From Engraulis encrasicolus (taxonomy: Eukaryota > Chordata > Actinopteri > Clupeiformes > Engraulidae), in NCBI RefSeq assembly GCF_034702125.1, contig NC_085876.1, positions 62,001-126,000 on the forward strand: a stretch of DNA of 64,000 bases. The letters are read 5' to 3'. Under the pieces are notes generated by a model. The model was not told where the DNA came from. It saw only the letters and a list, made by a program, of their open reading frames with translations, and did not search any database. Both the position numbers and the translations under genes were made by a program. This document shows, piece by piece, positions 28,723 to 60,786 of the stretch (position 1 is the stretch's first letter; each line of letters begins with the position of its first letter).

Positions 28723-30560
28723 ATATGATAGGCCTACCTAAATTCATAAAGCCATAATGTCGTTATATTACAAGATATCAAAAATCTGTCATCTGCCATC
28801 ATCGTCAAGCTCTTGAGCTCATGTATATCCAATATAAAGCACTTTGGATATACGGTGTAGGACAAGTACATCACATTCCATTGTATGTCAATTTCAAAAA
28901 AGTCAAATGATCTCATTTCCTGGTGGGCATCATTGTGGTAGTAGTGGTCTTAGCACCTGTCAAATGTCCCTGTCAGTCTCTCTTTGGATTGCCATTTCAA
29001 TCATAAAGACACGTGCAACACCCAACTGCCATTAAAACCCAACTATATGCCATATATATATATATATATTGTAGTGCTGCACCTGGTTGCCATTGCAGTC
29101 ACACAGAAATGTTTCATAGTTCATTATGCTACCAGTTTCAGGCATGAAAGTGAAAGCATATGTCTATATCTTTGTCTTAGTGAGATGCACGTCCACAAGA
29201 AATGCATGCATGGCAACACACTCAAAAATGGCCCCCGTCCGAACATCTCCGTGCTAGGGTGTGCTATTGAGACTTATTTCACTTCCTGTTGGGCGCGACC
29301 ATGGCACCCTTAACATTTTTTGCATGTCACAGTGAGATACACAACCACATGAAATTTGGAGTCTATAGCTCCAACTATAAGCCAGGCTCGAATATCTCTC
29401 TGCTAGGGGGCGCCAAGGTTTCTCAATTTATTATCACAATACAGTATTTAATTTTGGGCTGATGTACATCCAAAATGAGGCAGATCTGCTGAACAGTTTA
29501 GCACAAGTACTATTTCACTTTTACAGCAATTCATCTGCCTACCATATGGTGGCGCTAAATTCTCATTGTCATTAAAATTGTCATTTCAGTCATATATAAA
29601 AGTTGGGAGTCATCATATGCATGCCCATGTGTAACGGAGGCTAACTGGCAGAGTTGGCGTGGAACGTTAGTAAACCTCCCTTCCGATAGCCTCATACAGT
29701 GTCGATGCTGTTGGGCTGGGAGACTGGTCCTTTAGTCCAGCTGTATCGTGCTGTGCCTCCCATTTCCTAACCGATGAAGTTGGCGAGGTCGCAAGTTCGT
29801 GCCCCGAGGGGGACGAACAGGTGCAGGAAGACCTCGGTCACAGTGCTGCCGAAACCCGGGGTGGGAGTGAGGTTTAAGGGGGAGAGTGTAACGATATAGT
29901 TGAAGAGGGCGCACATTCGCGCCCCGAGGGGGACAAACAGGTGCAGGAAGACCTCCGTCACACATGTACATTTCTTTGCTTTTCAATCACCATCAAATGA
30001 ATTGGTGGCAGATTTTCTGTGTTTTTATTCATTAAAATTCATCAAGACGCCATTTTGTTTTCTTACAACATATCGAAAATTCATCTGCAGTTCTTAATAT
30101 GCTATGTCTTGAGGTCATATACACCGAAAATGAGACAGATCGGGTGTACAGATTATGGGGAGTGTTTCAAATTTCATTGTATGCCAAATTCCATTGTAAG
30201 TCAGCTTTTATTGTCACTTTCATCATATGCACAAGACATACAGGGAAAAATGAAATTACGTTTTCTCTCTATACCATGCCAGGACAAGACATATACAAAC
30301 TGACATTTTAGGCATCAAGTTCAACTTCAAGTCCAATTATCTCACTTTCTGTTGGGCGTGACCATGGAATCCTGTGACTTTTTGTTCGTTTTAGTGAGAT
30401 ACACACCCAAACAAAAATCGGAGTCTGTAGCTTGTACCGCCCCAATAGCCTATGCGTTAGGGGGGTGCTGCAGAGCCCCTGGGCTGATTTAGGGGTGGGG
30501 CTTTTTTTGAGTTGTTGATTTTCATTACATACATACAACTGTGAGTTTTTTTCTACTGGG
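28723..30560. repeat. Degenerate interspersed repeat array, part 2
   Basis: Continues the array of 24300-26172 after the 2.5-kb insertion, with two more diverged units (TACGGTGTAGGACAAGTACA near 28852; GTTGGGCGTGACCATGG near 30352). It was the landing site of the miniature LTR element at 29630-29962. Confidence 0.5.
29630..29962 (+). mobile_element. Miniature LTR element (TRIM-like), copy 1
   Basis: LTR 1 is 29630-29842 (213 bp, TGTAACGG...GGTCACA). The internal region is 29843-29886 (44 bp), with a degraded primer site TGCTGCCGAAACCCGGG and the purine tract AAGGGGGAGAG. LTR 2 is 29887-29962, missing about 137 bp from its middle. CATG flanks both sides (29626-29629, 29963-29966). No protein is encoded. 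Confidence 0.85.
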
Positions 30561-33570: not shown

Positions 33571-34223
33571 GGGGCGCACTGTGGCTAAGCCCCCTGCATT
33601 TGGGCTTGCATGCCCAGGAACACCCAAGTTTGGAATCTGGCCTCTCATTTCCCAAAGTAATGGAAACCAACTAGCAGAGTGTGGCGTGGAACGTTAGTAA
33701 ACCTCCCTCCCGAAGCCTCAACACAGTGCGGTAGCGTTGGACTATCGAAGCAGCCCTCTAGCTCAGCGGTCTCGTACTGTGCCTCCCATTGCCGAACTGA
33801 TGTGTTGACGAGTTGGTGAATTTGTGGCCCCGAGGGGGACGAACTGCGCGGGAACACCTCAGTCACAGTGGTGCCATTGACCCGGGATGGGAGTGCAGTT
33901 TAGGGGGAGAGTTTAAACGAAGGCCAACTAGCAGAGTGTGGCGTGGAACGTTAGTAAACCTCCCTCCCGAGGCCTCAATACAGTGCGGGTAGCATTGGGC
34001 TATCAGACCGGCCCTTTAGCTCAGCGGTCTCAGTACGTGCCTCCCATTGCCGAATCAATACCTGAACAAGGTGGTGATTCGTGGCCCCGAGGGGGACGAA
34101 CTGCGCAGGAACACCTCCGTCACGCCAACCCTCCATCTCTCTCTCTCCACATTCACTTCCTGTCGCGTTTCACTGTCCAATCCGAAACAAAGGCCCAAAA
34201 AGCCAAAAAAATCTTTTTAAAAA
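33571..34223 (+). mobile_element. tRNA-type SINE split by a miniature LTR element
   Basis: The head (GGGGCGCACTGTGGCTAAGC, then CAAGTTTGGAATCTGG as a worn B box) lies at 33571-33655. The tail (CACTTCCTGTCGC...A-rich) lies at 34129-34223. The target duplication AAGAATAACAATGAAG / AAGAATAGCAATGAAG (33555-33570, 34224-34239) brackets both halves, so the element at 33656-34124 inserted after the SINE did. Confidence 0.8.
33656..34124 (+). mobile_element. Miniature LTR element (TRIM-like), copy 2
   Basis: LTR 1 is 33656-33867 and LTR 2 is 33912-34124 (212 and 213 bp). The internal region is 44 bp, with TGGTGCCATTGACCCGGGAT as primer site and TTTAGGGGGAGAG as purine tract. The flanks CCAA (33652-33655, 34125-34128) give a 4-bp target duplication. 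The LTRs are more diverged than in copy 3, so this copy is older. The A box TAGCTCAGCGG is exact in both LTRs (33759, 34017). Confidence 0.87.
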
Positions 34224-43061: not shown

Positions 43062-43064
43062 TTT

Positions 43065-43083: not shown

Positions 43084-43359
43084 GGCATAGGAGCAGAGAC
43101 ACTGGTTTCATTTTTTTTAGGTTTTTGTTTTGTCACTCTTTGTAATAGAAATTTGTCATATGGTCAATGGTTGAATGAGTGTATGTATGTGGTTGGTTGA
43201 AAGTGAGAGCACCACTGAATAAGCGCTGTGAGTTTGTGTTTTTCCTGTAGAAGCGGAGCAGCAGCCGAGGTTGGGAGACCGCCCCTCTCTCGGGATTTGG
43301 ACCAGCCATCCCTGTGAGTTTTTGCATTTTCCAAATTTGTCTTGATCGGTTTCCGCAGC

Positions 43360-44442
43360 ATGTCGCGGGACGCACAAGAGATTAGGGATGAGTTGGCTGA
43401 GGTAAGAGCCGAGAATGAGCGCTTAAAGGCCTCCCTCGCCCAGCGGGCCACAAGTACGAGCACACTAAATGGTAGCGCCCCGGCAGGGTCCGCTACAGAA
43501 CGTTTGGTCTTTGTCCCAAGGGAAAAGAAGTGCCTATTGTTTAAGGGAAATGGGGGCATAAGTATCGAGGCGTGGAAGGAGGAGGCGGAAGCATGTATGC
43601 GGGCGCACCATTTTTCTGCTGCCGAGAGAGCCTATTTTCTTTACGATCACTTGGATGGCGAGGCACGGGATGAGATCCGCTATAGGCCGAGAGAAGAAAA
43701 AGAAAACCCAGAGAAAATTTTTGAAATTTTACAGGAGCTTTACGGTTGCCCACAGTCATACGTGGCCTTGCAGGAGGCGTTCTTTTCGAGAAAACAGCAA
43801 GAGGGAGAGACACTGCTAGAGTTTTCAATCGCATTAATGACCCTTATTGATAAGGTTAGACGAAATGCGCCTGAGGGAATTCTTAACGCTGACGTTCTTC
43901 TGCGTGATCAGTTTGTGGAGCATGTTAACGAGGGCGCCTTGCGTCGTCACTTGAAGAGTTTCATTCGGACCACGCCGTTAGCCACTTTGATCGCGGTGCG
44001 TAAGGAAGCCATGCGTTGGGAACGGAGGGGCGCCGCCGAACCGCAGCGGCCGCGTAGCTTTTCCTTGTCTTCACTCGATCGCTCCCTTGGGGTCCCTGGT
44101 ACCTCTTGCGCCGTAAGCATGGATCCCCGTGGTGGGGCGCCGACCAGATCTGATATGGAGAAGTTGCAGGCCGACATGGCGAAGCTCATGGAAATGGTGC
44201 AAAATCAACAGGCTCAGTTGCAGCATTTTTCTCGGGGTGCGGCCACACAGGGGGAGCCACGGAGGCGAGGTCGGTCTCCTCGGGAGGGACCCCTTGTCTG
44301 CTGGTGCTGTCGTGCGACAGGCCATATTGCTGCGGATTGTGACGGAGAACGAGTGGTGGGGCCCCCACAAGCACCCTCCCGTAGAGGCTCCGGGTTTTCG
44401 GAGAATGGGCCCCTCCAACCGAACCAGCCCTCGGGAAACTGA
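43360..44442 (+). CDS. Gypsy element A gag
   Basis: Gag forms the particle that packages retrotransposon RNA in the cytoplasm. The frame opens at 43342, but the first ATG is at 43360, right after a TTTCCGCAG that could be a splice acceptor of the leader. The N-terminus is a short coiled coil (EIRDELAEVRAENERLKASL). The body (LLFKGNGGISIEAWKEEAE ... FFSRKQQEGETLLEFSIALM) resembles the Gypsy/PNMA-Arc gag fold. One CCHC zinc knuckle, CWCCRATGHIAADC, is near residue 320. About 360 residues. The protease frame overlaps it in the -1 direction, as expected for frameshift expression. No internal lesion seen. Confidence 0.88.
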   Translation: MSRDAQEIRDELAEVRAENERLKASLAQRATSTSTLNGSAPAGSATERLVFVPREKKCLLFKGNGGISIEAWKEEAEACMRAHHFSAAERAYFLYDHLDGEARDEIRYRPREEKENPEKIFEILQELYGCPQSYVALQEAFFSRKQQEGETLLEFSIALMTLIDKVRRNAPEGILNADVLLRDQFVEHVNEGALRRHLKSFIRTTPLATLIAVRKEAMRWERRGAAEPQRPRSFSLSSLDRSLGVPGTSCAVSMDPRGGAPTRSDMEKLQADMAKLMEMVQNQQAQLQHFSRGAATQGEPRRRGRSPREGPLVCWCCRATGHIAADCDGERVVGPPQAPSRRGSGFSENGPLQPNQPSGN

Positions 44443-44462
44443 CGCCCACCGGACTGAGGAGT

Positions 44463-45152
44463 CACAGTCCGGGGGGGGCCTCTCTTGGCTCACGTAATGC
44501 CCTTGCCCCTGCCAATGCCGCCGAGGCGTTACTTTCTAACTGTCCACATCTGCTCGTCCGGATGGGCGGGGTTCAGGTCCCCTGTCTCATTGACACTGGG
44601 TCTATGGTGTCCACCGTCACTGAAAGTTTCTTCGCTGCCAACTTCGAATCTTTGGGGCAGGAGCGTTTACGCTCATGTCACTGGCTGCAGCTCCGAGCGG
44701 CCAACGGCCTAGAGATTCCTTACTTGGGCTACTTGGAGCTGAATATTGAGCTTTGCGGGAAGAGTATGCCTGATTGCGGTGTTCTGGTCGTTCGCGACCC
44801 CCCAGGGGGCACGGCTTCCGTGGTCCCTGGGGTTCTTGGTATGAATGTTATCGGCAAGTGTTATAAGGAACTTTTTGGGCGGCACGGTCCCACGCTTTTC
44901 GATCTCCCATCAGTGTCAACTGCCCCTCGACCGGTGGTGAAAGCGCTGCAACACTGTCATCAGGCTGAAATCCGGCCCACCCCAGAGACCAGTGGCATGG
45001 TGAATGTCCGGGGCCGTGCGCCATGGCGGGTTCCGGGGGGGACCATGAAGTTGATTCCTGCCACCTGCCCTGAGCAACATTCAGGGCTTGGAACCCTCTT
45101 TGAGCCGACGGACCGGGGGTTGCCCGGGGGGTTGCTGGTGTCCCCTGCCTAG
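44463..45152 (+). CDS. Gypsy element A protease region
   Basis: The aspartic protease cuts the gag-pol polyprotein. The active-site block is CLIDTGSMVST (about 44580-44612), with the downstream hydrophobic VVPGVLGMNVIG block. The frame is -1 relative to gag and is already open upstream of the ATG at 44562, so it is probably expressed as a gag fusion. It is closed by an amber codon at 45150-45152; the same frame continues directly into reverse transcriptase. The bases after the TAG (GTG) do not match the usual retroviral readthrough context, so this is more likely a nonsense mutation. Confidence 0.82.
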   Translation, partial: HSPGGASLGSRNALAPANAAEALLSNCPHLLVRMGGVQVPCLIDTGSMVSTVTESFFAANFESLGQERLRSCHWLQLRAANGLEIPYLGYLELNIELCGKSMPDCGVLVVRDPPGGTASVVPGVLGMNVIGKCYKELFGRHGPTLFDLPSVSTAPRPVVKALQHCHQAEIRPTPETSGMVNVRGRAPWRVPGGTMKLIPATCPEQHSGLGTLFEPTDRGLPGGLLVSPA

Positions 45153-47519
45153 GTGCAGGTGACCCGTGGCTTGGTGCAGATCCCTGTAGTTAACGTCGGT
45201 TGTACGGACGTCCTGCTGTACCCTCGTACTAGACTCGGACAGGTGAATGCTGTGTCGATCATCAGCTTGCCACGGGACGTGGTGGAGGTCCGTTCCGTGG
45301 CCGCCATTACTGACCCTCAGGACTTGTTACCCCTGCCTGCCGAGGAACAGGCTGAGGTCCGGGCCCTGCTTCTGAGGTACTCTTCGGTCTTCTCCGCCCA
45401 TGAGGGCGACTTGGGTTGCACTTCCCTAATCTCGCACGACATCCCGCTGTTGGATCCGACACCGGTCCGGCAGCGTTACAGGCGCATTGCCCCCTCCGAC
45501 TACGAGGCCGTAAAAACCCATATCAACCAGCTCCTCCAGGCGAAGGTCATCAGAGAAAGCAGTAGTCCATTCGCTTCTCCCCTTGTTCTAGTCCGGAAGA
45601 AGGATGGGAGCTTGCGACTCTGTGTCGACTATCGCCTGTTAAATGCCCGAACTCGGAAGGATGCCTTTCCACTCCCTCGGATCGAGGAGACATTGGACAT
45701 GTTGGCAGGTGCCCGCTGGTTTTCTACGATGGACTTAGCCAGTGGGTACAACCAAGTCCCCGTGACAGAAGGTGATCGGGCCAAAACGGCATTCTGTACC
45801 CCCTTCGGGTTGTTCGAATGGAACAGAATGCCTTTTGGCCTGTGCAATGCACCAGGTACATTTCAACGATTAATGCAACGTATGTTCGGCGACCAACAGT
45901 GTCATTCCGTTCTACTGTATCTTGACGACATCGTGATCTTCTCGTCCACCGTGGCGCAACATCTACAGCGCCTGGAGATGGTCTTGACCCGGTTGCAGTC
46001 GGAGGGGCTGAAGGCTAAATTAGGGAAGTGCGCGTTCTTTAAGCCGGAGGTTCAGTACTTGGGACATGTGATCTCTCAGCACGGTGTCTCTACCGACCCT
46101 GGCAAGGTGGAGGCAGTGTCCACATGGCGGCGACCTGCCAATGTGTCGGAGCTCCGATCATTCCTAGGCTTCGCCAGCTATTATCGACGATTCGTTGAAG
46201 GATTCGCAAAGCTGGCCGCGCCGTTGCATCGATTGGTGGCCACCTTGAACGGGAGCCGTTCCCGTCGGCCCTCGGGGCAGCAGTTCCTTGATGCATGGTC
46301 AGAGGATTGCGAAAGAAGTTTTGAGGAACTCAAGGGGAGGCTCGTGTCGGCGCCGGTACTGGCGTACGCGGACTTTAGCCGCCCATTTATTCTTGAGGTC
46401 GACGCCAGCCATTGCGGACTGGGCGCGGTCCTCTCGCAGGAGGTGGACGGCAAAGTCCGACCGGTGGCATACGCCAGTAGAACGTTAAGACCTACAGAGC
46501 GGAATATGAACAATTACAGTTCTATGAAGCTCGAGTTCCTCGCCCTAAAATGGGCCGTCACCGAGAAGTTTCGCGAATATCTCTTGGGCCAGAAGTGTGT
46601 CATGTACACTGATAATAACCCCCTGAGTCACCTCACTACTTCCAAACTTGGGGCGGTCGAACACCGGTGGGCCGCACAGCTCGCATCATTTGATTTTGAA
46701 TTAAAGTACCGCTCGGGTAAATCTAACGGTAATGCGGACGGCCTGTCGCGGCAGAATCAGCCAGACCAAGAAGACGTGAGTGACCTGGTTCCGGGTACAG
46801 CGGTCCCTAGATTGCTGCAACAGGTAGCGGCTCAGGGAGACGGCAGCACCGCCTCTCAGTCCAGTGTCTCGGGGTTGTTCCCCCACGCTTTGCCGGTTCT
46901 GCGCACTCTGCAAGCAAGCGACCCCGGTGGTCAGCTGCAACCGGCCGCTGTCCCGGGGGGTAGCATCACCGCCTCTCAGTTGGTTGTTTCGGTGCTGCCC
47001 TCCCACTCTTTGCCGGACCTGTGCGCTCTGCAAGAAGGAGACCCTGTTATCCAGCCGATTCTGGCCTTCTGGAAGGCGCGTCGGCGGCCTACTCGTGAGG
47101 AACGGGAAGCTCTGTCACCCTTGGCCTTGATCCTGTTGCGGCAGTGGAAACGGTTTGTGGAGAACGATGGAGTCCTTTACCGGAGAGTGCTACACCCCAG
47201 TGGCCGTGATGAGTGCCTCCAGCTGGTTTTGCCGGCTGCCCTGCAATCAGAGGTCCTAAACCAGCTCCACGAGCACCATGGCCACCAGGGGATTAATCGA
47301 ACACTGGAGTTGGTTGGGCAACGGTGTTACTGGCCCCGCATGTTTGCGGAGGTGCGCCGATGGTGTGAAAAGTGCCTTAGGTGCCAAGAGTCCAAAGGGG
47401 AGCCTCCTCTAGCCGCCGCGTATATGGGCCACCTACTGGCATCTCGGCCCAACGAAGTGGTAGCTGTGGATTTCACGCTTTTGGAGCCCACGTCGGGGGG
47501 GGGGTGGAGAACGTTTTAG
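45153..47519 (+). CDS. Gypsy element A reverse transcriptase, RNase H, integrase N-terminus
   Basis: The polymerase region of a Ty3/Gypsy element: copies the RNA and begins integration. Order seen: RT fingers (VRKKDGSLRLCVDYRLLN), MDLASGYNQV, the catalytic YLDD at about residue 256, RNase H (EVDASHCGLGAVLS near residue 417, TDNNPLSHL), then the integrase zinc motif (HEHHGHQG ... CEKCLRC, residues about 706-745). The first catalytic Asp of integrase (AVDF) is near residue 772. The frame is lost at a run of ten G (47495-47504). The motifs themselves are intact, so the copy is young but disabled by the amber codon upstream and this frameshift. Confidence 0.92.
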   Translation: MQVTRGLVQIPVVNVGCTDVLLYPRTRLGQVNAVSIISLPRDVVEVRSVAAITDPQDLLPLPAEEQAEVRALLLRYSSVFSAHEGDLGCTSLISHDIPLLDPTPVRQRYRRIAPSDYEAVKTHINQLLQAKVIRESSSPFASPLVLVRKKDGSLRLCVDYRLLNARTRKDAFPLPRIEETLDMLAGARWFSTMDLASGYNQVPVTEGDRAKTAFCTPFGLFEWNRMPFGLCNAPGTFQRLMQRMFGDQQCHSVLLYLDDIVIFSSTVAQHLQRLEMVLTRLQSEGLKAKLGKCAFFKPEVQYLGHVISQHGVSTDPGKVEAVSTWRRPANVSELRSFLGFASYYRRFVEGFAKLAAPLHRLVATLNGSRSRRPSGQQFLDAWSEDCERSFEELKGRLVSAPVLAYADFSRPFILEVDASHCGLGAVLSQEVDGKVRPVAYASRTLRPTERNMNNYSSMKLEFLALKWAVTEKFREYLLGQKCVMYTDNNPLSHLTTSKLGAVEHRWAAQLASFDFELKYRSGKSNGNADGLSRQNQPDQEDVSDLVPGTAVPRLLQQVAAQGDGSTASQSSVSGLFPHALPVLRTLQASDPGGQLQPAAVPGGSITASQLVVSVLPSHSLPDLCALQEGDPVIQPILAFWKARRRPTREEREALSPLALILLRQWKRFVENDGVLYRRVLHPSGRDECLQLVLPAALQSEVLNQLHEHHGHQGINRTLELVGQRCYWPRMFAEVRRWCEKCLRCQESKGEPPLAAAYMGHLLASRPNEVVAVDFTLLEPTSGGGWRTF

Positions 47520-48703
47520 TCATCACGGACGTCTTCAGTAAGTATTCCATCGCCGTCCCCACCCGGGATCAGCGGGCCTCGACGGTCGCCCAGGTCTTGC
47601 TTGTGGAATGGTTCTACCGGTTCGGAATTCCTGGTCGGCTCCACTCCGACCAGGGGCGCTGTTTCGAGGGCACCCTGATTCAGCAGCTTTGCGGGCTGTA
47701 CGGGGTCCAGAAGTCCCGAACCACCCCGTACCACCCGGCCGGGAACGGCCAATGTGAGCGATTTAACCGCACTCTACACAACCTCCTGCGTACCCTACCG
47801 GCCTCTCGGAAGCGCGACTGGGCAACTTGCCTGCCGCACGTAACCTTCTGTTATAATACCACCCCGCATCAAGCGACAGGAGAATCGCCACACTTCCTTA
47901 TGTTCGGCCAAGAGCCACAGCTACCCGTAGACTTCCTCCTGGGCCGAGTTCGGCCACCGGTCCATGGTCGAGTGTGCGACTGGATACAGGAGCATCAGGC
48001 CCGGCTTCAAGTGGCATTTGATGGGGCTCGGGAGCGTTTGGCCGCAGCGGCGGAATATCGCAAGGACAGACACGATGCACGGGTGAAGACTGCTGTTTTA
48101 GAAGTAGGGCAACGGGTATATGTACGCAACCTCGGCGTGCGAGGTCGAAATAAAATCCAAGATGTGTGGAACTCTCAGGTACACATGGTGGTGCGTACCT
48201 CTTCGGAGAGCGGAGCCGTGTACACGATCGCCCCTGTCAACGATCCAACGAAGCTGAAGCACGTCCACCGCAGCATGCTGAAAGGAGTGGTGGGCCCCCT
48301 GGCCCCCGACAACCCCCCGGGGTCGGGCCGACCAGGTGAACCTACCCCTGTCGACTCAGGGGAGCTATCGAGCGAAGAAGATATCCTTCTTGGGGAGCAG
48401 GTGGGCGATGCTGGCTTGGGTGTCCCAGCAGAGCCCCATGCACCCCAGGGTGGCACCTCAGGAGGAAACGAAGGGCAGCGTCGGACTTCGCAGGCTTCCC
48501 ACAGCAGTTCGGCCGCTCAGCTACCCGGTCGTGGCACTAGCAGCAGCGAGGTGCCCCCACGCCGGACTTCCCGGGACAACACTCTAATCCCCATCGGCTG
48601 CCTGGTGGGGCGACTCCAAACTTTTAATGGAATTTTGGATCTGGGAGTGGGGGGGAAGGCGTCCCTGCATCGTCGGGCCGACGATTCAACATGTGGGGGG
48701 TAG
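47505..48703 (+). pseudogene. Gypsy element A integrase core and C-terminus (shifted frame)
   Basis: Continues integrase in another frame after the G-run. It contains LVITDVFSKY, HSDQG (second catalytic Asp, codon at 47648), TPYHPAGNGQCERFNRTL (catalytic Glu, codon at 47756) and the GPY/F-like C-terminal region. It ends with a proline/serine-rich tail and the usual RRTSRDN-type end. TAG at 48701-48703 lies 5 bp before the 3' LTR; no env-like frame is present. Confidence 0.88.
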
Positions 48704-48708
48704 ATGAA
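48690..48708 (+). promoter_or_regulatory. Polypurine tract of Gypsy element A
   Basis: TGTGGGGGGTAGATGAA abuts the LTR start. The gag-only element has a comparable CTGGGGCGAA at 50791-50800, and both are preceded by CGATTCAA, which supports common descent of the two 3' ends. Confidence 0.6.
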
Positions 48709-50050
48709 TGTAACAGGTTGGACTAGGTCCCCTGTTAGTGTGCATGTTGTAATTGAAAACAGCTGCCCGTGTGGGCGAGGGTGGAGCCCTTCCGGTTAGT
48801 ATAAATTGCCTACTATGTTGTCTGTTAGCCAGGTGTGGCTAACCTCAGTACCGGTTGGCGCTTGGGGAAGCCCTGTACGCTGGGTGAAGTAGGTGATGTT
48901 GGCGTGTTGGGTGTTGGACCCACACTGGAGCGCGTAGAGCGCAGCTGAAATGCGGACGCCAGGTTGCCGCATGTAGCCTAACCGGCTCGAAGGTAAGCCC
49001 TTCTGTGTGCACCTGGCGATAGCCAATTATGTTTGTACTGTGGCTAACGAGATGTTGTTTCACTGCAGCATTGCATGGTGAAGCAAGGGTCAACCGTAGA
49101 CTTCCAAGCTCGGTCCAGTGCTTCCCAATTGCAACTGAAGGTAATTTCTAATTAACCGTCACTCTGTGCCTGTGGCTTTCATGCCACACCTTGCTCATTG
49201 ATAATGGCATTTCCCTGGCATTAACCCAGTCTGTCTTGTGCTTTCTAGGTTGAGCACATTATTGTCAATTGGCTGGGGTGGGGGGACGCCGCCGTCTTTT
49301 CCCGGTGTTTGTGTTTGTTATTTTGCCTTTTACCACCACGAGCTCTTTTAGTAGTGCAGGTTGTTGTTCCTTTGCGCAGGTGCGCGACGCTTTCGTCTTT
49401 CAGCCATACGGTCTGACACGGTCAGCTCCAGTCACCCACCCCTTAGACAAGGGATGAGTGATTGGGGACTGGCCGGTTGAGATTTGTAGCAGTATCGTGT
49501 AAACTTATTGGTGAGGTGTAGATCCCCTGAGTGGTATAGTAAACTCTCTGCCAAGAGGCCTGATTTGATAAACATAGGCTACCTCTTCACTGCGAATCAT
49601 TTCAGTGTGCTGTGACTTATTTTGTTTATTTTGATTATGTTTTGTGTGTACAGTTTTGATTGATTGCAGTGTTATTTTGCATTCGCAGTGCAGTGTGTAG
49701 TTAACACACTCAGTAAATTACCTGTACTAGGCCTACTCAGTGCTCTCGCACTTAAGCCGTCACCGTTTCACGATATGTACCTGTATTGACTTCAGTAGAG
49801 TTAAGACTCTGTGTATATGGACTCAAGTGAACTGCCTGCTCATTTTGAAAACGAATAAGACTGAAAGCAGAAGAAAATAAAAACTATTGTATGTGCAACA
49901 GCTGTGTCATCCTTGTCATCTAGAACCTGTCGGGGAAAAAATGTATTTTTAACATCTGGGTTGTCTCACCCTTAACGAGACTGGCGTAGTCACCTTTTAA
50001 AACCTAATTGCTTAAAAGTTAGTAATCCTACCAACCTCCACTCTGCTACA
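48709..50050 (+). mobile_element. LTR shared by Gypsy element A (3') and gag-only element B (5')
   Basis: 1342 bp, TGTAACAGG...GCTACA. TATAAAT lies at 48800-48806 and AATAAA at 49876-49881, so transcription would give an unusually long R region of about 1 kb. Two GT...AG segments (48993-49068 and 49141-49248) look like mini-introns. It differs from the LTR at 50801-53568 at only about half a dozen positions. Confidence 0.92.
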
Positions 50051-50053
50051 TTT

Positions 50054-50071
50054 TGGCGTAGTCGGCAGGAT
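50054..50071 (+). promoter_or_regulatory. Primer binding site of element B, tRNA-Ser
   Basis: TGGCGTAGTCGGCAGGAT, 18 nt complementary to the tRNA-Ser 3' end, 3 bp after the LTR. The ATG of the gag-like frame (50070) overlaps its last two bases. Confidence 0.85.
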
Positions 50072-50669
50072 GACCTGTGAGGCACAGCTGTTGGTTAGAG
50101 CTCGTGGTTTTCTTTTTTTTCTTTTTGTTGTTTTACTGGGGAAAGACGGCGGCTGCCCCCTCGGCGGGCGACACCGCGGCGGGCACCCAGGGCCCAAAAT
50201 GATTGAACTGGCGGAGCTACAGGAGATGGCAGCGCGGAACCAGCGGCAGCTGGACCTGCTGAGCCAATGGGTCGACGCGCAGCCAGAGTCTCCACGGTCG
50301 CCGCTCACGTGCTGGAGGTGCCATCAGCCAGGGCACCTGGAGCGAGAGTGCGACTGGCCACGGGTTGTTGCGCGGCCCCGGTCTCCACGGCCACCAATCA
50401 AGTGCTGGAGGTGCCACCAGCCAGGGCACCTGGCACGGGAGTGTGATGGGCCACGGGTCTCTCGTCGTGTGCGAACCCCGCCGACAGTCCAATCGGAGAG
50501 TGAGCAGCGCCGGGGCACCCCCCAGCACCAGCCAGGACCAGGCTGGATAGCCACACCTCGGGCGGAGGCCGGCCGCTCTCTGGGGACTCAACCATGGCCA
50601 CTCCATCGCCATCCGGCGTTTTATTGTTTTGTGTGTGTATATGTGCCGTGGTGGTTATGTTGTTGTTGA
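50070..50669 (+). CDS. Element B gag-like protein with two CCHC knuckles
   Basis: The only coding capacity in a 750-bp internal region. The 199-residue frame has a hydrophobic stretch after the start (FLFFLFVVLL), a predicted helix (ELAELQEMAARNQRQLDLLS) and two nearly identical zinc knuckles, CWRCHQPGHLERECD and CWRCHQPGHLARECD, about 27 residues apart. Zinc knuckles of this type bind RNA in Gypsy gag proteins. Protease, polymerase and integrase are absent, so it must depend on a helper. The capsid part is also missing. Whether the frame is translated is uncertain; the knuckle duplication looks selected or recently copied. Confidence 0.7.
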   Translation: MTCEAQLLVRARGFLFFLFVVLLGKDGGCPLGGRHRGGHPGPKMIELAELQEMAARNQRQLDLLSQWVDAQPESPRSPLTCWRCHQPGHLERECDWPRVVARPRSPRPPIKCWRCHQPGHLARECDGPRVSRRVRTPPTVQSESEQRRGTPQHQPGPGWIATPRAEAGRSLGTQPWPLHRHPAFYCFVCVYVPWWLCCC

Positions 50670-50800
50670 TAAGTGTGTTGGGTATGTGTTAGGTGTGCGC
50701 GCGGGTGTGTGCGTGTGTGTGCGTGTGTGTGTGTCTATCCCCATCATAGGGTGAGCTACAGTGCGGCACCGGGACGGTACCGATTCAAAGCTGGGGCGAA

Positions 50801-53568
50801 TGTAACAGGTTGGACTAGGTCCCCTGTTAGTGTGCATGTTGTAATTGAAAACAGCTGCCCGTGTGGGCGAGGGTGGAGCCCTTCCGGTTAGTATAAATTG
50901 CCTACTATGTTGTCTGTTAGCCAGGTGTGGCTAACCTCAGTACCGGTTGGCGCTTGGGGAAGCCCTGTACGCTGGGTGAAGTAGGTGATGTTGGCGTGTT
51001 GGGTGTTGGACCCACACTGGAGCGCGTAGAGCGCAGCTGAAATGCGGACGCCAGGTTGCCGCATGTAGCCTAACCGGCTCGAAGGTAAGCCCTTCTGTGT
51101 GCACCTGGCGATAGCCAATTATGTTTGTACTGTGGCTAACGAGATGTTGTTTCACTGCAGCATTGCATGGTGAAGCAAGGGTCAACCGTAGACTTCCAAG
51201 CTCGGTCCAGTGCTTCCCAATTGCAACTGAAGGTAATTTCTAATTAACCGTCACTCTGTGCCTGTGGCTTTCATGCCACACCTTGCTCATTGATAATGGC
51301 ATTTCCCTGGCATTAACCCAGTCTGTCTTGTGCTTTCTAGGTTGAGCACATTATTGTCAATTGGCTGGGGTGGGGGACGCCGCCGTCTTTTCCCGGTGTT
51401 TGTGTTTGTTATTTTGCCTTTTACCACCACAAGCTCTTTTAGTAGTGGCAGGTTGTTGTTCCTTTGCGCAGGTGCGCGACGCTTTCGTCTTTCAGCCATA
51501 CGGTCTGACACGGTCAGCTCCAGTCACCCACCCCTTAGACAAGGGATGAGTGATTGGGGACTGGCCGGTTGAGATTTGTAGCAGTATCGTGTAAACTTAT
51601 TGGTGAGGTGTAGATCCCCTGAGTGGTATAGTAAACTCTCTGCCAAGAGGCCTGATTTGATAAACATAGGCTACCTCTTCACTGCGAATCATTTCAGTGT
51701 GCTGTGACTTATTTTGTTTATTTTGATTATGTTTTGTGTGTACAGTTTTGATTGATTGCAGTGTTATTTTGCATTCGCAGTGCAGTGTGTAGTTAACACA
51801 CTCAGTAAATTACCTGTACTAGGCCTACTCAGTGCTCTCGCACTTAAGCCGTCACCGTTTCACGATATGTACCTGTATTGACTTCAGTAGAGTTAAGACT
51901 CTGTGTATATGGACTCAAGTGAACTGCCTGCTCATTTTGAAAACGAATAAGACTGAAAGCAGAAGAAAATAAAAACTATTGTACAAAGCGGATTCCAAAA
52001 AAGTTGGGACGCTTTGTATTTTGTGAATAAAATCAAAATTGTGGCATTTTCAAAACATTCAATATGTTAATAAGGTAGAACATCATATACAGATAACATA
52101 TCAGTTGTTGAAGTCAAACAGAATTATTGTTTTGAGGTAATTATGTGATCATTTAAATTTTCACCCTTGCAACAAATCCCAAAAAAGTTGGGACAGGGCC
52201 AATACAATGTTTTTTATATTGGATAAGACTAAACACAACACAAGGGATGAGACCGAACAGTTAAATACTTTGACTAATGGCATAATATTGTCCAAAAATT
52301 AAATATTTTTTATGTGCGAGACATGATTTCAGCAGCTCAACTGATAGGTGTGTTCTTCAACTTGTTTACCTTTTTGTTATGCTTAATATCTGGCATATCC
52401 TGACTGCAAGAAAACAATTTTGTGACCTGTTTACTCTTATGATGGAACCACACTGTTGGAACATAGAAGAGATTGAAATTTGCCACCGTTATGGGGCAAT
52501 ATCTAAAGGCGGTGCTCCAAAATATAATGCCTTGGTAGCTATGTATGCTGTTTAAAGTCTGTATATATCATTCAACATTAATTTTAATGCTCTACATGAG
52601 CAAGAAGACCACAACCAAGGTACCTCTGCACCCCCTTACCATCATATATGCTCTCTTTCAGACTGACCACTAAATCAAGCTGAAGTATCCATTTTCTATA
52701 TAACCTGGAGGGTGCATGACTCCAAGATTTTAAAAAAGGATGAAATATTTTCCATTCTGTAATCAGAGGACAGTTTCACATGTCTCCTAGGTCCATCTAG
52801 AATAAACTTTTCCGCATGCAACACTGTTTAATGTCTGCATCATGTGCATTAATCAAGTGTTGTGTTTATGGTCATTTTTTCGAAAGCTGTCATTGTTGGA
52901 GTGTCATAGTTTGCTTATTGACGACGAGTATGCCATGATCTCATAACTCATGTAATGATTACACAGAACTCTATATTGTGGAAATAGGCATTATATGCCT
53001 GCAATTTGGATAATTCAATCTTTCTGTGTAATAGCTAAGTAATTAGCCCCTCAAAATCTTTGCTTCTGAGTGCCACAGCCTCTCTGTGATGGTATTTTAT
53101 TTGTGCATTCATATTGGCAGTCAATATAGTTCCTTTTAAAATATTCTTCCTTGTGTTATTTTTAGAATTATCCAACTATTATAACATGTTTTGGCCCTGT
53201 CCCAACTTTTTGGAGATTTGTTGCATGGGTCAAATGTTAAATGATAACATAATTACCTCAAACCAATAATTCTGCTCGACTTAAACAACTGATATCTTGT
53301 CTGTACATAATGCTCTACCTTATTAACATATTGGATGCTTTGAAAATGCCAGCATTTTTATTTTATTTACAACATACAAAGTGTCCCAACTTTTTCGGAA
53401 TCCGCTTGTATGTGCAACAGCTGTGTCATCCTTGTCATCTAGAACCTGTCGGGGAAAATTGTATTTTTAACATCTGGGTTGTCTCACCCTTAACGAGACT
53501 GACGTAGTCACCTTTTAAAACCTAATTGCTTAAAAGTTAGTAATCCTACCAACCTCCACTCTGCTACA
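50801..53568 (+). mobile_element. 3' LTR of element B, interrupted by a DNA transposon
   Basis: Same LTR as 48709-50050 (50801-51983 and 53411-53568), with TATAAAT at 50892. The 1.4-kb IR/DR element at 51984-53408 sits in the region just after the AATAAA. Confidence 0.93.
51984..53408. mobile_element. IR/DR-type Tc1/mariner-like element, non-coding
   Basis: TA is duplicated at both sides (51982-51983, 53409-53410); the intact LTR copy shows the empty site CTATTGTATGTGC. Terminal inverted repeats are about 220 bp and roughly 85-90 percent alike. Each TIR carries the direct repeat AAAAAGTTGGGAC at its outer and inner edge (51998-52010, 52182-52194, 53199-53211, 53383-53395). This is the IR/DR arrangement known from Sleeping Beauty-type elements. 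No transposase frame lies between. Confidence 0.9.
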
Positions 53569-55020
53569 TAAGGATAGCGTTCCTATCACCCTACAAGCAA
53601 TCAGTGGTTCTGCACAGAACCCTATATTCCTGTGGCAACGTGGTCACATCTAGCCGGTAGAACCGGACAAAGGTGGCGGGGTTGGCCCAACCAACCGCTC
53701 TGCACACCTCTGAAACTGCTGCACCCTTGAAGAGAGGACAAGATGTAGAGACCTGCACTGGTAAAATGAGCCCTAATCTGAGCCGGGGGTTGGCGACCCT
53801 CGGACTCATATGCCAGGGCAATGGTTTGAACCAACCATTTGGAGACCTCTATTTCAAAACTGTGAGCCCTGTAGGGGGCTTGATGAAGCACACAAACAGC
53901 TGCTCAGTGTTCCTAAAAGAGTGAGTCCTGTTCATGTAGATGCGTAAAGCGTGCACAGGGCACAAGTTGTGTTGTCACCTCTCTTCCACGGATCTGAAAG
54001 GTGGTGTGCAAAAGCAGTTTGGAGAGGCCCCTCTTGGAGGGGCTCGACAGGGTCCCCACACATAGCCTCCAGTACAAGAGAGATATCCCAGGGGGGTATC
54101 GTCTGATGTAGCACGGGTCGTAAGTATCTAGTGGATGGGCACTCAGAGTGTTGGAACCGAATCCTACATTGCACGATGAAATCGCTGCAAAGTAGACTTA
54201 AATGGTAAAGCCTTGTCTCCCCCCAATAAGTCTTGTAGGAAGGACAACACCATCAGTACTGAACACTGAAAAGTTGTCTTGTCGCGTTGGTCACACTAGC
54301 GTTGGAAGACAGACCACTTCAGGTTATACAGTGTCAAAGTAGATTGGGCCCTGGCCCCTTGAATTGTCCTGATAACGTTATCCAGAAAACCGGTTAGGTT
54401 CAAATGTTCCCTTGCCAGACCCATAGGGGACCCATAGGGTATGTCATCCTCCTGGTCCGTTGCCAGACTCGAACCTGCAGGAGAGGGGAAAGTAGCAGGA
54501 GGGGCTGAAGCCCCTGAGCCCCGTGGGCTAAGGGGGGACAAACCCTGAGAAATCTTGCCTCCTTGCAGGAGGGGAAAAAGGGAGGCGTCAGGCGAAGGCG
54601 CTCGTGGTGCATTATGCAGGACTTTTGGAGTCTACAAGCGCGCCATGTCTGGTGACAGGGTGCGCTTTCGTGCCAAGCGCAGTGGCCTGCGGTGATGCCC
54701 AAGGGGCTCCAAGGCAGCTGCTCGAGCTGGGGCAGCCACATCAGCCACTAGGGTGGTGGTCAGTACCTGCTGTATGAGATTCTCTGTGGTGGCAGGGAGT
54801 TGGGATAAAGAGTTGTCCACCTTAGGCGGGAGATCGAAGCACTTTGCCAGGGGGGAGTCAGAGTCTGACTCCACTGAAATTCGTTGCCAGCAGTCGACCG
54901 TAGTCAATAGAACAAAGGGACAGAGCAGGCTAGAACTAGTCAAGCTCTCGTAACTCGTGTCGTTCAAGGTACTTGTGACCTCAGTCAGGAGACGTGAGTC
55001 CAAGGAACCGGGTACGCACA
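53569..55020 (-). pseudogene. DIRS element with tyrosine recombinase remnant
   Basis: DIRS elements integrate with a tyrosine recombinase instead of an integrase. On the minus strand, in several frames: LTLYNLKWSVFQRWC-type start (about 54300), PPWDISLVLEAMCGDPVEPL (about 54080), KWLVQTIALAYESEG...PAQIRAHFT (about 53800) and AVSEVCRAVGWANPATFVRF followed by YRLDV with the presumed catalytic Tyr (about 53650). Frameshifts separate these. Further upstream (54632-55000) is a gag-like stretch. The reverse transcriptase and RNase H part was not seen. The right boundary with the gene piece at 55030 is approximate. Confidence 0.75.
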
Positions 55021-56535: not shown

Positions 56536-56669
56536 TCACAAATATGAAAAATGTGACTAGACTAATATAAATGCAGTCCATTTACCATAGACATACTGTA
56601 GGGCTATATAAGTAAAAGAAGATGATTATAGAGCTCACAAGTACTCAAAACTCTATGGTATTTCTTGTT

Positions 56670-56886
56670 AGTGTTGCCAGATTGGGCGGTTACCCGCCCA
56701 ATTGGGCTACTTGCGATGGCCGTCTGCGGGTAAAAAAAGGGAAAAATCGGGCATTTGGCATTTTTTCTGCTGTTTTATGCCCATAGAAGTCAAAGTAATT
56801 TGTTGAAATTGGGAAGAATTTAGCGCATTTTGGTGGTTTTTGATAACCTTTTGGGCGGGATTTGATCAGACACATCTGGCAACACT
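56670..56886. mobile_element. hAT-like MITE (GTTGCCAGATTGGGC family)
   Basis: AGTGTTGCCAGATTGGGCGG...ATCTGGCAACACT, with CCCGCCCAATTGGGC inside. Relative of 27798-27984. The opposite palindrome arm lacks it. The target duplication is not clean. Confidence 0.7.
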
Positions 56887-57063
56887 AAGTTCCGGTTCCC
56901 TTTGTGTCCGAAAATTAATGGGGACCAGTCTCAAATAAGGTGTGTGTGCAAATGCGTGATTAGCGAACCCCCTCAAACTGACGAGGGTATTAAAAATAGG
57001 CTGTAGGGATGACATGATTGACCATTCTTGTGTCAAACACCAGCATAAACATGATGTTGCTAT

Positions 57064-57234
57064 TGTTATGTCTGTTTGTTGCCTGTTCATGCTGCATATT
57101 CCCGGATGCTGCTTCATAACAATACTCATGCAGGGCATGCTGGGAACGCGGGTTTTAGGGAAATAAATGGCTGCTATGACCAGAGTTGGACATCTCCGTG
57201 TCTAGTGTATTTGATCGTTTTATTGTACATAACA
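57064..57234 (+). mobile_element. 5' LTR of small Gypsy element C
   Basis: 171 bp, TGTTATGTC...ACATAACA, with AAATAAATGG as poly(A) signal. The partner is at 59275-59446 with only two differences. Flanks GCTAT / GTTAT suggest a 5-bp target duplication. Confidence 0.93.
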
Positions 57235-57235
57235 T

Positions 57236-57250
57236 TGGCGACGAGGATGG
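57236..57250 (+). promoter_or_regulatory. Primer binding site of element C, tRNA-Ser (GCT)
   Basis: TGGCGACGAGGATGG is complementary to the recalled 3' end of tRNA-Ser(GCT) over 15 nt. The gag start codon ATG (57247) lies inside it. Confidence 0.75.
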
Positions 57251-58358
57251 AGCTTAACCTACCACCACCACTCAGTTTTTAGCACTGCCTGGCGAACCCC
57301 CGGTGCCTTGGGTTCGTTGGCTTGAAACTTTTGAAAACTATATTGACGCCCTGGGACTTCACGAGGCTAACGACGTTCGAAGACGGGCTCTTCTCATCCA
57401 CTGCCTGGGTACTGAGGGACAACGGATCTTTCGGACATTGGGACAGGCAAAAAAGTATAAAGACGCCACGAAGTTGCTGGAGGCACACTTTGCCGCTCCA
57501 CAGACTGTAATCCTTCGTCGGATCGTGTTTCGTCAGCGCAAGCAAAATGTCGGTGAGTCGATTCAACACTATGTAGCCGACCTGCGCGGCTTAGCCTCCC
57601 TCTGTAAATTCGGCTCCATGGAGGATGAAATGATATGAGACCAGCTCGCAGAACACGCCAGCCATTCTAAGATAAGAGAGAAGTTGATTATGTCACCGGA
57701 CGACTTGACTTTAACGAAAGCCTTAGAGATTGCCTTGCAAATCGAGATGGCCACCGAGCTAGCCACGAAATTGTCTTCCCGCGCTTCTGCGCTGCCCGCG
57801 TTGACTCAACACGTAGAGGAGCCCGAACGCTCGCCAAGCCCCACGCCCTCGGAGGAGGCAGAGGGGATACACTTCACTGCACGTCCGCAGTTCCAGTCAC
57901 GCCGCAGTTGTGGCGATTGTGGCTCTTCTTCACACTCCAGCAGGGCGCCAGCGTGCCCGGCCAGGGGACAGGTGTGTAAAAAGTGTGGGAAGAGCAACCA
58001 CTTTGCCCGAGTCTGCCGTTCTGCACCGGCCACGACCCGACCACAAAGCTCCCCTCATCTCGGCCCTCGACCTGCATCCTCTTCTGCAGGTCCCGCTGCC
58101 ATACACTCAGTAAGCTCGTGCCCTGCGCCCATACAGTCAGTCGACTCCGTCCGTGTGCCATTCAAGACATGTTCAATTGAATTGGATGGTGTCTGTGTCC
58201 CATTGCTGCTGGATACGGGAGCAGCGGTGTCCCTCCTCAACTTGCCCACAGTACAGCGTTTCCTGCCCCAAATACAGCTACAGGCGCCATCAGCAGTGTT
58301 ACATGAATACGGTAATTCAAGTATTACTCTGGTGGGCTCTTTGACCTGTGCAGTTTGA
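57247..58358 (+). pseudogene. Element C gag and protease
   Basis: Gag (WVRWLETFENYIDALGLHE, FRQRKQNVGESIQHYVADLR), a zinc knuckle CKKCGKSNHFARVC near 57978, and an aspartic protease block PLLLDTGAAVSLL near 58202. Lesions: a frameshift near 57275 soon after the start, TGA at 57636-57638, and TGA at 58356-58358. Gag and protease share one frame, as in other tRNA-Ser Gypsy lineages I know in fish. Confidence 0.85.
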
Positions 58359-59274
58359 CACGGCAGCAAATGCGTCCCGGCCTTCACCTTCCAAGTGGCA
58401 CAACACGACGGTGCCAACCTCATGGGCCCGGACCTGATCACCAGCCTGGGCTTCACCCTCCTGGACAGCAGGGGTGCAGCCATCTTCCACGTCGGATCGC
58501 CATGGGAGCAGTGGTGGCCCCAACTTTTCTCTGGCCTGGGCTCCATCTCTGCCTTCACGCACCAGCCTCTCCTGCGCACGGAAAGGCGCCCGTCATCCAA
58601 ACCTCTCCGCCGCATTCCTCTGGCACTGCGTGACGACGTCACGGTGGAGCTAAGGAAGCTGCTGGAAGCATCATAGAACCGGTGGATGCGTCACCATGGA
58701 TCTCCAACCTGGTGATAGCAAAAAAGAAATCAGGGGGCCTGCGAGTGTGTGTCGACTTGAGGGCAGTGAATCAAGCGGTTATTCCCGACAAGTACCCGCT
58801 GCCCACCGCAGAGGAGTTGACCTCTCAATTCTACGGCTCCAAGCTGTTCAGCAAGCTCGACCTCCGTCAGGGCTACTTACAGGTTCCTCTCCACCCTGAT
58901 AGCCGCAGCCTGACGGCATTTATCACACACGCCGGTGTTTTCCGCTACACCAAGGTACCTTTCAGCCTCTGCTCTGCCCCTAGCTGTTTCCAGAAGATCA
59001 TGTCCACCATCTTTGCTGGCATTCCAGGAATGGTCATCTTCCTCAAAGACATAGTGGTCCATGGTCCGACACCCGTCATCCACGACCAACGTTTGACACA
59101 GGTGCTGGACACTTTAATCTCCCACAACCTCACGCTGAATGGGGAGAAATGTCTCTTCTCGCCACCTGAGGTGGAGTTTGTGGGGTTTCGCCTGACCCCA
59201 GACGGGCTCAGCCCTCTACAGTCCAACATAGAGGCCATCCAGCGGCTGCCCATGCAACCGCTGGCTGGGAAAAA
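58359..59274 (+). pseudogene. Element C reverse transcriptase, truncated, catalytic Asp replaced
   Basis: RT blocks SPWISNLVIAKKKSGGLRVC, KLFSKLDLRQGYLQVPL, FRYTKVPFSLCSAPSCFQ. The catalytic box reads FLKDIVV, so the first Asp of the (Y/F)LDD motif is Lys. A one-base deletion lies near 58673. The frame ends 3 codons into the 3' LTR: RNase H and integrase are deleted. It cannot make a working polymerase. Confidence 0.88.
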
Positions 59275-59446
59275 TGTTATGTCTGCTTTGTTGCCTGTTC
59301 ATGCTGCATATTCCCGGATGCTGCTTCATAACAATACTCATGCAGGGCATGCTGGGAACGCGGGTTTTAGGGAAATAAATGGCTGCTATGACCAGAGTTG
59401 GACATCTCCGTGTCTAGTGTATTTGACCGTTTTATTGTACATAACA
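59275..59446 (+). mobile_element. 3' LTR of small Gypsy element C
   Basis: 172 bp, preceded by the purine-rich CTGGGAAAAA. One indel and one substitution against the 5' LTR. Confidence 0.93.
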
Positions 59447-59779
59447 GTTATCACATGCTTAACCCGGAAAACTGGCAGACTACAGTACAATAGGGAGACC
59501 AACAGCCACAAACTGCCACAAACCTTACTGGTACGAGACTTGGGAAATATTTCTAACCAAGCTCTGATACAGGTTGTTTTTCACTCCTGGTAACACTCTT
59601 TTGATAAAACTTAAAAAGTGCCATAACTGCAATTACTCAAATCACCTTGGTTTAGAAGTATACTTTCGAAACTTACCATCGAGGAGAAGTTTGCTCATGC
59701 GAAGTTTGCTGTGGGTTACCATGGACACGGCTCGCGAAATCTCCCTCCTGTAGTCTGCCAGTTTTCTGGATTAAGCATG

Positions 59780-60504
59780 TGTAACGGAGGCTAACTAGCA
59801 CAGAGTTGGCGTGGAACGTTGGTAAACCTCCCTCCGATAGCTTCATACAGTCTTGTGCCGTTGGGCCGAGAGACTAGTCTCTTGGCCCAGCGGTATCGTA
59901 CTGTGTCTCCCATTGCCGAACCGTTGTAGTTGACGAGGTCGCACGTTCGATCCCCGAGGGGGGTGACCAGGTGCAAGATGACATCCGTCACAGTGGTGCC
60001 GTGACCCGGATGGGAGTGAGGTTTAAGGGGGAGAGTGTAACGGAGGCTAACTAGCACAGAGTTGGCGTGGAACGTTGGTAAACCTCCCTCCGATAGCTTC
60101 ATACAGTCTCGTGCCGTTGGGCCGAGAGACTAGTCTCTTGGCCCAGCGGTATCGTACTGTGTCTCCCATTGCCGAACCGTTGTAGTTGACGAGGTCGCAC
60201 GTTCGATCCCCGAGGGGGGTGACCAGGTGCAAGATGACATCCGTCACAGTGGTGCCGTGACCCGGATGGGAGTGAGGTTTAAGGGGGAGAGTGTAACGGA
60301 GGCTAACTAGCACAGAGTTGGCGTGGAACGTTGGTAAACCTCCCTCCGATAGCTTCATACAGTCTCGTGCCGTTGGGCCGAGAGACTAGTCTCTTGGCCC
60401 AGCGGTATCGTACTGTGTCTCCCATTGCCGAACCGTTGTAGTTGACGAGGTCGCACGTTCGATCCCCGAGGGGGGTGAACAGGTGCAAGATGACCTCCGT
60501 CACA
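59780..60504 (+). mobile_element. Miniature LTR element (TRIM-like), copy 3, tandem trimer
   Basis: LTRs of exactly 213 bp at 59780-59992, 60036-60248 and 60292-60504, separated by 43-bp internal regions (59993-60035, 60249-60291). Each internal region is one G, the primer site TGGTGCCGTGACCCGGAT (17 of 18 complementary to tRNA-His 3' end), a dozen bases, and the purine tract AAGGGGGAGAG. The LTRs differ at one to three positions. The target duplication CATG (59776-59779, 60505-60508) is confirmed by the opposite palindrome arm, which has a single CATG. Each LTR has TGGCCCAGCGG (A box) and CGTTCGATCCC (B box) 50 bp apart. No protein. Confidence 0.93.
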
Positions 60505-60786
60505 CATGTAATGGCAACATCGTATTTATGTAGGCGTTTGACCCAAGAATGGTCAATCATGTCATCCCCACAGTCTATTTTTAATACCCTCGTCAGTTTG
60601 CTAATAGCATGTTTGCACACATGCCCCATTTGAGACTGGTCCCCATTCATTTTCGTCCGCAAAGGGAACCAGTTAGTCTTTAAATGCTGACAAGAAATAC
60701 AATAGAGTTTTGAGTACTTGTGAGCTATATTGTCAACAGTGATAGGAGATAAAGGTTAGTAAGCTTATGACATGAAGCACCTTTAA

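Follow-up and report, generated by a model that had tools for sequence, protein, structure and literature searches.

What kind of element lies at positions 59780-60504 of a 64-kb stretch of European anchovy DNA (64,000 nucleotides, all of which were analysed and which we call the window), where LTRs of 213 bp are separated by internal regions of only 43 bp? This locus (L3) and two others (L1 and L2) had been taken in a sequence-only reading for copies of one miniature LTR element. We consider it likely that the three loci belong to one family of non-autonomous LTR retroelements of the Helenus type, that is, TRIMs with a tRNA-derived, probably RNA polymerase III (Pol III), promoter in the LTR.

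The anatomy of the three loci was established by direct reading and realignment. L3 has the order LTR-43-LTR-43-LTR, with 213 bp in each LTR, and is flanked by CATG on both sides. L1 (29630-29962) consists of a 213-bp LTR, a 44-bp internal region, and a deleted LTR, between copies of CATG, and L2 (33656-34124) consists of a 212-bp LTR, a 44-bp internal region, and a 213-bp LTR between copies of CCAA. The internal lengths of 43-44 bp and the exact 4-bp duplications CATG, CCAA, and CATG were thus as first read. LTRs of 212-213 bp with TGT...ACA ends had been ascribed to all three loci; this holds for L3, but the second LTR of L1 is reduced to 76 bp, keeping its first 7 bp and about its last 66-71 bp, so that L1 has a single full LTR, and the outer ends of L2 have decayed to AGT...ACG. 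The features are as follows, all on the + strand except the duplications, which carry no strand.

59776..59779, 5' target-site duplication CATG of L3
59780..59992, + strand, L3 LTR a, 213 bp, TGT...ACA
59845..59906, + strand, near-perfect 62-nt hairpin of L3 LTR a (folded with flanks), with box A in its 3' arm
59883..59893, + strand, box-A-like motif TGGCCCAGCGG of L3 LTR a, LTR positions 104-114
59944..59954, + strand, box-B-like motif CGTTCGATCCC of L3 LTR a, LTR positions 165-175
59994..60011, + strand, L3 primer-binding site TGGTGCCGTGACCCGGAT, complementary at 18/18 positions to the tRNA-His of the anchovy itself once base 73 and CCA are supplied
60020..60035, + strand, L3 polypurine tract GGTTTAAGGGGGAGAG, abutting LTR b
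60036..60248, + strand, L3 LTR b, 213 bp
60249..60291, + strand, second internal region of L3, 43 bp, same sequence as the first, primer site at 60250-60267
60292..60504, + strand, L3 LTR c, 213 bp
60505..60508, 3' target-site duplication CATG of L3
29626..29629, 5' target-site duplication CATG of L1
29630..29842, + strand, L1 LTR, 213 bp, 84% identical to L3
29843..29886, + strand, L1 internal region, 44 bp, primer site at 29844-29861
29887..29962, + strand, second LTR of L1, with internal deletion
29963..29966, 3' target-site duplication CATG of L1
33652..33655, 5' target-site duplication CCAA of L2
33656..33867, + strand, 5' LTR of L2, older subfamily, box A TAGCTCAGC intact and box B decayed
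33868..33911, + strand, L2 internal region, 44 bp, with a third type of primer site
33912..34124, + strand, 3' LTR of L2, 87% identical to the 5' LTR over 202 bp
34125..34128, 3' target-site duplication CCAA of L2

Because the LTR boundaries were set by the junctions between LTR and core, the duplications at the flanks test them independently. When the window was searched with the LTR by nhmmer (E values 2.9e-65 to 1.8e-08) and blastn, matches were confined to the three loci and to matches of the LTR palindrome with itself, with no further copy in the 64 kb. The tRNA-His primer-site pattern matched twice in the window at up to three mismatches, both times inside L3, and two matches were reached in none of 100 shuffles. 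The longest stop-free frames across L3 were 112 aa, and a protein-space search with the longest frame spanning LTR, core, and LTR gave no homologue (four candidates, none with E<=10). The element has the features by which TRIMs are recognized, namely two LTRs, a length under about 1000 bp, no coding capacity (as judged from the frames of L3), a primer site, a polypurine tract, and short duplications of fixed length.

The empty site of L3 is also visible in the window, as a single CATG in the opposite arm of an inverted repeat. When the insert and one duplication copy were removed on each side, the two arms aligned without gaps across both insertion points; one arm of this older inverted repeat took L3, and the other took a broken Gypsy element with the imperfect duplication GCTAT/GTTAT. 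The Gypsy remnant (57064-59446) and L3 were inserted <10 bp apart in the aligned arms of the inverted repeat (56628-60730), which is possibly an insertion hot spot.

Other repeats were observed in the window. A Gypsy pol region at 43062-48708 has a primer site at 43065 that fits tRNA-Ser at 18/18 positions, and a 788-aa frame in this region is 97% identical to an unnamed protein of the assembly. At 48706-53569, direct repeats of 1.19 kb (99.7% identical) surround a 906-bp stretch with a zinc-knuckle-like frame, and the second repeat is apparently split by an insert at 51984-53405; this is possibly a long non-autonomous LTR element. Positions 1162-2198 contain 6.7 tandem copies of a 153-bp unit (81% matches), and a LINE-like frame at 17118-19208 matches an Engraulis encrasicolus protein with 97% identity across 74% of the frame.

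We searched the European anchovy assembly (1.433 Gb, 1880 contigs) for further copies. At up to three mismatches, a core 29-mer gave 539 matches and an LTR 29-mer gave 2141, with none for either reversed control. A first look yielded 1594 candidates with the L3 query and 3314 with the L2 query, from each of which 40 were scored. Three sets of loci were then described. L001-L008 were the best matches to the three-LTR query and are arrays by selection, L001 being L3 itself. L009-L038 were the first 30 listed exact matches to a core word that includes the primer site, so that conservation of the primer site in that set is by construction. L039-L068 were the best matches to the L2 copy, chosen independently of the primer site, with L039 being L2 itself. 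Four loci that repeated others (L021, L026, L027, and L034) were dropped.

Duplications were counted in 30 of the 34 unique young loci, namely those with at least two complete LTRs (L014, L017, L020, and L035 were excluded), and the mis-parsed locus L037 was scored as a miss. Exact 4-bp duplications were found in 25 of the 30, including L3, and four more matched at three of four bases. In these 25, the first base was C or T in 23 and the last was A or G in 22, which shows a weak target preference of YNNR. In the older set, exact 4-bp duplications at the extrapolated ends were present at 9 of 30 loci, including L2 and one copy of the L3 type. Identity between the 5' and 3' LTRs of the young elements, the mis-parsed one left out, ranged between 190/209 and 213/213, which suggests that some of the insertions are recent. 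The 26 unique elements kept in the core-word sample comprised 20 with two LTRs, three with three LTRs, and three with one long LTR, and the commonest form was the 469-bp LTR-43-LTR; L008, the 27th in this sample, is a three-LTR array, and four-LTR arrays also occur (L003 and L004). The polypurine tract GGTTTAAGGGGGAGAG was present in 38 of 42 young cores, the word that selected most of this sample overlapping it by 2 bases. These results indicate that the copies are dispersed insertions rather than a satellite, as the exact duplications argue, and they bear out a TRIM in a teleost, with LTR-core-LTR units bounded by 4-bp duplications in most sampled copies and a purine tract conserved in most young cores. 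Long arrays without duplications were not seen in these samples. LTR and core patterns of the element gave no match in viral and prokaryote contigs.

We next consider the tRNA-like boxes in the LTR, which had been missed when the locus was first read and which decide the Helenus classification. With position weight matrices for the boxes, the summed box A and box B score of L3 was the best among 638 tiles of the window and was reached by none of 1000 dinucleotide shuffles; 32 of 1000 shuffles reached the score of L1, and 277 and 7 reached those of the two L2 LTRs. Among 127 LTRs of 63 elements, the 99th percentile of mononucleotide shuffles was exceeded by 71 young LTRs (of 75) and 25 old ones (of 52). 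The best box A was TGGCCCAGC in 69/75 young LTRs and TAGCTCAGC in 35/52 old LTRs, and box B was CGTTCGATCCC in 51/75 and GGTTCGATCCC in 6/75 young LTRs but variable in the 52 old ones. The window copies of the two LTR subfamilies differ by about 25%, and box A, and less so box B, holds its place (near LTR positions 104 and 165) in both. In a local alignment with a tRNA panel, L3 resembled the T-arm of tRNA-Ile (23/27 columns) and the D-arm of initiator tRNA-Met, in the right order, with a best score reached by 2 of 300 shuffles; the scores of L1 (63/300) and the L2 LTRs (237 and 99/300) were at shuffle level. Two results speak against a tRNA origin: at the three loci no Rfam tRNA model matched even at E<=10, and ARAGORN found no tRNA. 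The search of tRNA and ribozyme families gave sub-threshold matches to other families only.

The hairpin of L3 LTR a, which spans box A, has a folding energy of -43 kcal/mol (z -8.0, folded with flanks). The corresponding z was -4.0 in L1, and the two L2 LTRs (-0.8 and 0.2) were not beyond shuffles. Against 30 mononucleotide shuffles each, the median z was -7.4 for 31 young LTRs and -2.8 for 25 old ones, with z<-2 in 31/31 and 18/25, respectively. Across an alignment of 41 distinct rows, the covariation score, the paired cells, and the double-change cells (40 versus a mean of 19.4) exceeded all 500 shuffles; the number of pairs with double changes was 6 versus 5.4 (reached by 246/500 shuffles), and further pair types were reached by 490/500. 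The excesses in covariation score, paired cells, and double-change cells are open to another reading, because two related sequence groups can give them without structure. Covariation across the five window LTRs gave nothing clearly above shuffles.

The primer site of L3, TGGTGCCGTGACCCGGAT, matched human tRNA-His at 17/18 positions, the reference being human tRNA-His primers printed in PMC12217144 and PMC3253121. In the anchovy itself, all 20 genome matches to a tRNA-His pattern, which left the variable T-stem positions open and whose matches were taken without reading the anticodon, read GCAGCAACCCCGGTTCGAATCCGGGTCACGGC, with CCGGG in the 3' strand of the T-stem. This reading removes the sole mismatch, and with base 73 and CCA added by us, L3 fits the tRNA-His of its own species at 18/18. 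The proposed tRNA-His-like site thus stands for L3 but not for the other two loci. Measured against a tRNA panel, the L1 site fits tRNA-Phe at 16/18 and tRNA-His at 12/18 positions, and the L2 site, at 11/18 and 10/18, fits neither. The tRNA-Phe-like site had 14 exact word matches in the genome and 36 at up to two mismatches, among them L1 and nine reading TGGTGCCGTGACCCGGGA. The third type, TGGTGCCG[C/T]TGACCCGGGA, had 308 matches to an extended word at up to one mismatch. Sites of the tRNA-His type and of the third type were found in both LTR subfamilies. In LTR elements, the new plus-strand primer site is copied from the primer, so mixed site types are the expected trace of repeated primer switching, although they are not proof of it. 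Phe-like and third-type cores were observed side by side in a single tandem array (C4:30821441-30821981 of G000).

One locus provides sequence evidence for tRNA-His as primer beyond the 18-nt complementarity. L077 (G000:C3:31076932-31077432) has a complete LTR, then a G, and directly after it 38 nt of tRNA-His complement, which match the human sequence at 35/38 positions. Compared over 36 nt with the anchovy tRNA-His gene, the sole mismatch lies at nt 19. By our count on the human tRNA-His sequence, nt 19 lies opposite A58, and the end of the copy adjoins G37. L077 is the only genome match to its 25-nt tRNA-His word at up to one mismatch, and no 4-bp duplication is visible around it. Animal tRNA genes do not encode CCA, and therefore the stretch looks like a copy of a mature tRNA rather than a nearby gene. 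tRNA-His carries m1G37. The modification m1A58 has been reported in primer tRNAs including tRNA-His, and in HIV-1, extension past A58 was observed when the methylase was mutated (PMC13191261).

Elsewhere, 48 tRNA-His primer sites were not followed by G, and 18 of these were read (C, 7/7; A, 3/3; T, 8/38). Seventeen of the 18 adjoin the anchovy family, and one, L079 (G000:C5:36155380-36155904), stands alone as an exact tRNA-His primer site of 18 nt, with nothing else of the element detected in 525 bases. At another locus, L082 (G000:C14:54828856-54829560), an LTR is followed by three 115-bp units, each a primer site plus LTR positions 116-213, within one CTGG duplication. These look like strong-stop units or the product of a deletion and unequal crossing-over. 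L082 is explained equally well by a deletion with a 2-bp microhomology and subsequent unequal crossing-over, so its use as a map of an RNA start at LTR position 116 was set aside and no start site was drawn from it.

The arrays were examined through the differences among their LTRs. The three LTRs of L3 differ at three sites, at which the middle LTR b has, from left to right, the states of c, a, and a, and at the two right-hand sites LTR c has the state common to L1 and L2. A single crossing-over that joins the 3' LTR of one copy to the 5' LTR of a second copy would be expected to leave exactly such a hybrid. The arrays at L006 and L033 show the same site order; L005 does not fit a single crossing-over, and L002, L007, and L008 were uninformative. 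The L3 array is best explained by unequal crossing-over after insertion, not by copying of a concatemer. In plant TRIMs, arrays of three LTRs with two internal regions (L3I2) inside one duplication are known and make up 63 of 93 maize arrays (PMC4717578); L3 shares this arrangement and has, in addition, a hybrid middle LTR.

The alternative that we take most seriously, while still considering it unlikely, is an ordinary TRIM transcribed by Pol II, in which the boxes would be left over from a SINE that inserted into the LTR long ago and would no longer drive transcription. TTTT is missing from 136 of 139 LTRs, so those LTRs contain no Pol III terminator, and this, together with the lack of a tRNA covariance-model match and the weak box scores of L1, L2, and 27 of 52 old LTRs, is what such an element would lead one to expect. 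On the other hand, AATAAA or ATTAAA occurred in none of the 139 LTRs and TATA[AT]A in none of the three window copies, the box pair of L3 has the highest score of the 638 tiles, and box A, less so box B, keeps its place in both of the divergent subfamilies. With no T run in most LTRs and no polyadenylation signal, transcription must end in the flank or at an unrecognized signal; in 33 young elements, the first TTTT lies 3-630 bp downstream.

The remaining explanations are far less probable still. Tandem Repeats Finder reports L3 as a 256-bp tandem repeat of 2.8 copies, and this, with the four-LTR arrays, is how a satellite or tandem repeat with an incidental LTR-like structure might appear. 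We rejected this reading, to which we attach almost no probability, because 20 of the 26 core-word elements have two LTRs, three have three, and three have one, exact 4-bp duplications enclose the whole unit in 25/30, and the primer site fits the host tRNA-His at 18/18. A tRNA-derived SINE moved by a LINE and LTR-like by resemblance would have the same small size and tRNA-type boxes. It was rejected as exceedingly improbable, because the duplications are 4 bp long, the ends are TGT...ACA, and both a primer site and a purine tract are present. Small LTR units, tandem copies, and 4-bp duplications are also features of retrozymes, which spread as ribozyme-made circular RNA. No ribozyme family was detected at Rfam thresholds in the window, however, nor at E<=10 in the three loci, and with no self-cleaving ribozyme detected, we rejected a retrozyme-like element as a vanishingly small prospect.

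The Helenus-type reading agrees with what is in print on that group. Helenus (TRIMp3) is defined by tRNA-like sequence in the LTR, with box A as TRGCY..YGG and box B as GGTTC (Kojima 2024, PMC10886601); the anchovy element agrees with this in box A and loosely in box B. The same source describes 4-bp duplications in animals, which the anchovy element also has, tRNA-His, tRNA-Leu, and tRNA-Lys primers in vertebrates, and tandem arrays, and gives as hosts coelacanth, sturgeon, paddlefish, and ostariophysan fishes, among others (PMC10886601). The first supposition, that such a TRIM is unusual in a vertebrate, is accordingly not supported. The tandem arrays are described for LTR-11_DR, 5575 LTRs were counted in zebrafish, and Pol III transcription is described as not validated for Helenus (PMC10886601). 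By description, LTR-11_DR and the ostariophysan Helenus share with the anchovy element boxes A and B, a primer site, a purine tract, 4-bp duplications, tRNA-His among the primers, and tandem arrays. The anchovy element differs in its host, Clupeiformes being absent from Table 1 and "clupe" from the main text of PMC10886601, in its core of 43-44 bp, and in having three types of primer site in one family. "Helenus" does not occur in the accessible text of the anchovy genome paper (PMC13403563; 1.4 Gb assembly), no further Helenus report appeared among the literature matches listed, and a literature text search with DNA words of the element gave no match. With this element, an anchovy joins the hosts of tRNA-promoter TRIMs that we could find in print.

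Other small elements share some of these properties. Cassandra, a plant TRIM, also has a small-RNA Pol III promoter in the LTR, but one derived from 5S rRNA, in elements of 565-860 bp (PMC10886601), whereas the putative anchovy promoter is of tRNA type, the two-LTR form is 469 bp, and the LTRs mostly have no T-run terminator. The very small non-autonomous SMART element FRetro129 of grasses likewise has TGT...ACA ends but is 292 bp long, with 85-bp LTRs, a 122-bp internal region, 5-bp duplications, and a putative Copia partner (PMC3281118), in contrast to the 4-bp duplications of the fish element. An element of 233 bp with 52-bp LTRs is also in print (PMC4717578). The internal region of the Selaginella Helenus is called "only" 85 bp (PMC10886601); being shorter than these printed lengths of 85 and 122 bp and than the interior of the 233-bp element, the 43-bp core may be a size record, fish Helenus core lengths aside.

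We propose the following model. Pol III would initiate inside the LTR, shortly before box A, and the transcript would continue across the 43-bp core and the following LTR until it reached a run of T in the flanking DNA. This transcript would then be packaged, copied from tRNA-His, and integrated by the proteins of a Gypsy-type element. The core would give only the primer site and the purine tract, which would leave the LTR as the place of any packaging signal, with the hairpin as a candidate. Both the use of Pol III and a Gypsy partner are what we infer from sequence. The 4-bp duplications fit mobilization by Gypsy; no Gypsy partner was found, as the two Gypsy elements of the window do not use tRNA-His and none was present at the 18 of 48 candidate sites that were read.

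In its fullest form, which we put forward tentatively and at rather less than even confidence, this model would make the anchovy family the most stripped-down LTR retroelement known, with no more than primer site and purine tract in its 43-bp core and all other cis functions in a Pol III-type LTR. One family would have switched among tRNA-His, tRNA-Phe, and a third primer with the flanking bases unchanged. L077 would be the fossil of a polymerase that copied a modified tRNA-His past A58, with a substitution opposite A58 and a stop next to G37, and Helenus would be older than the divergence of the ostariophysans from the lineage of herrings and anchovies. The family is abundant and offers a direct way to ask, in a vertebrate, what an LTR element requires in cis: as only 43 bp separate the LTRs, packaging, priming, and strand transfer must draw their signals from the primer site, the purine tract, and the LTR. 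Its primer-site types likewise allow primer switching to be counted in a vertebrate genome.
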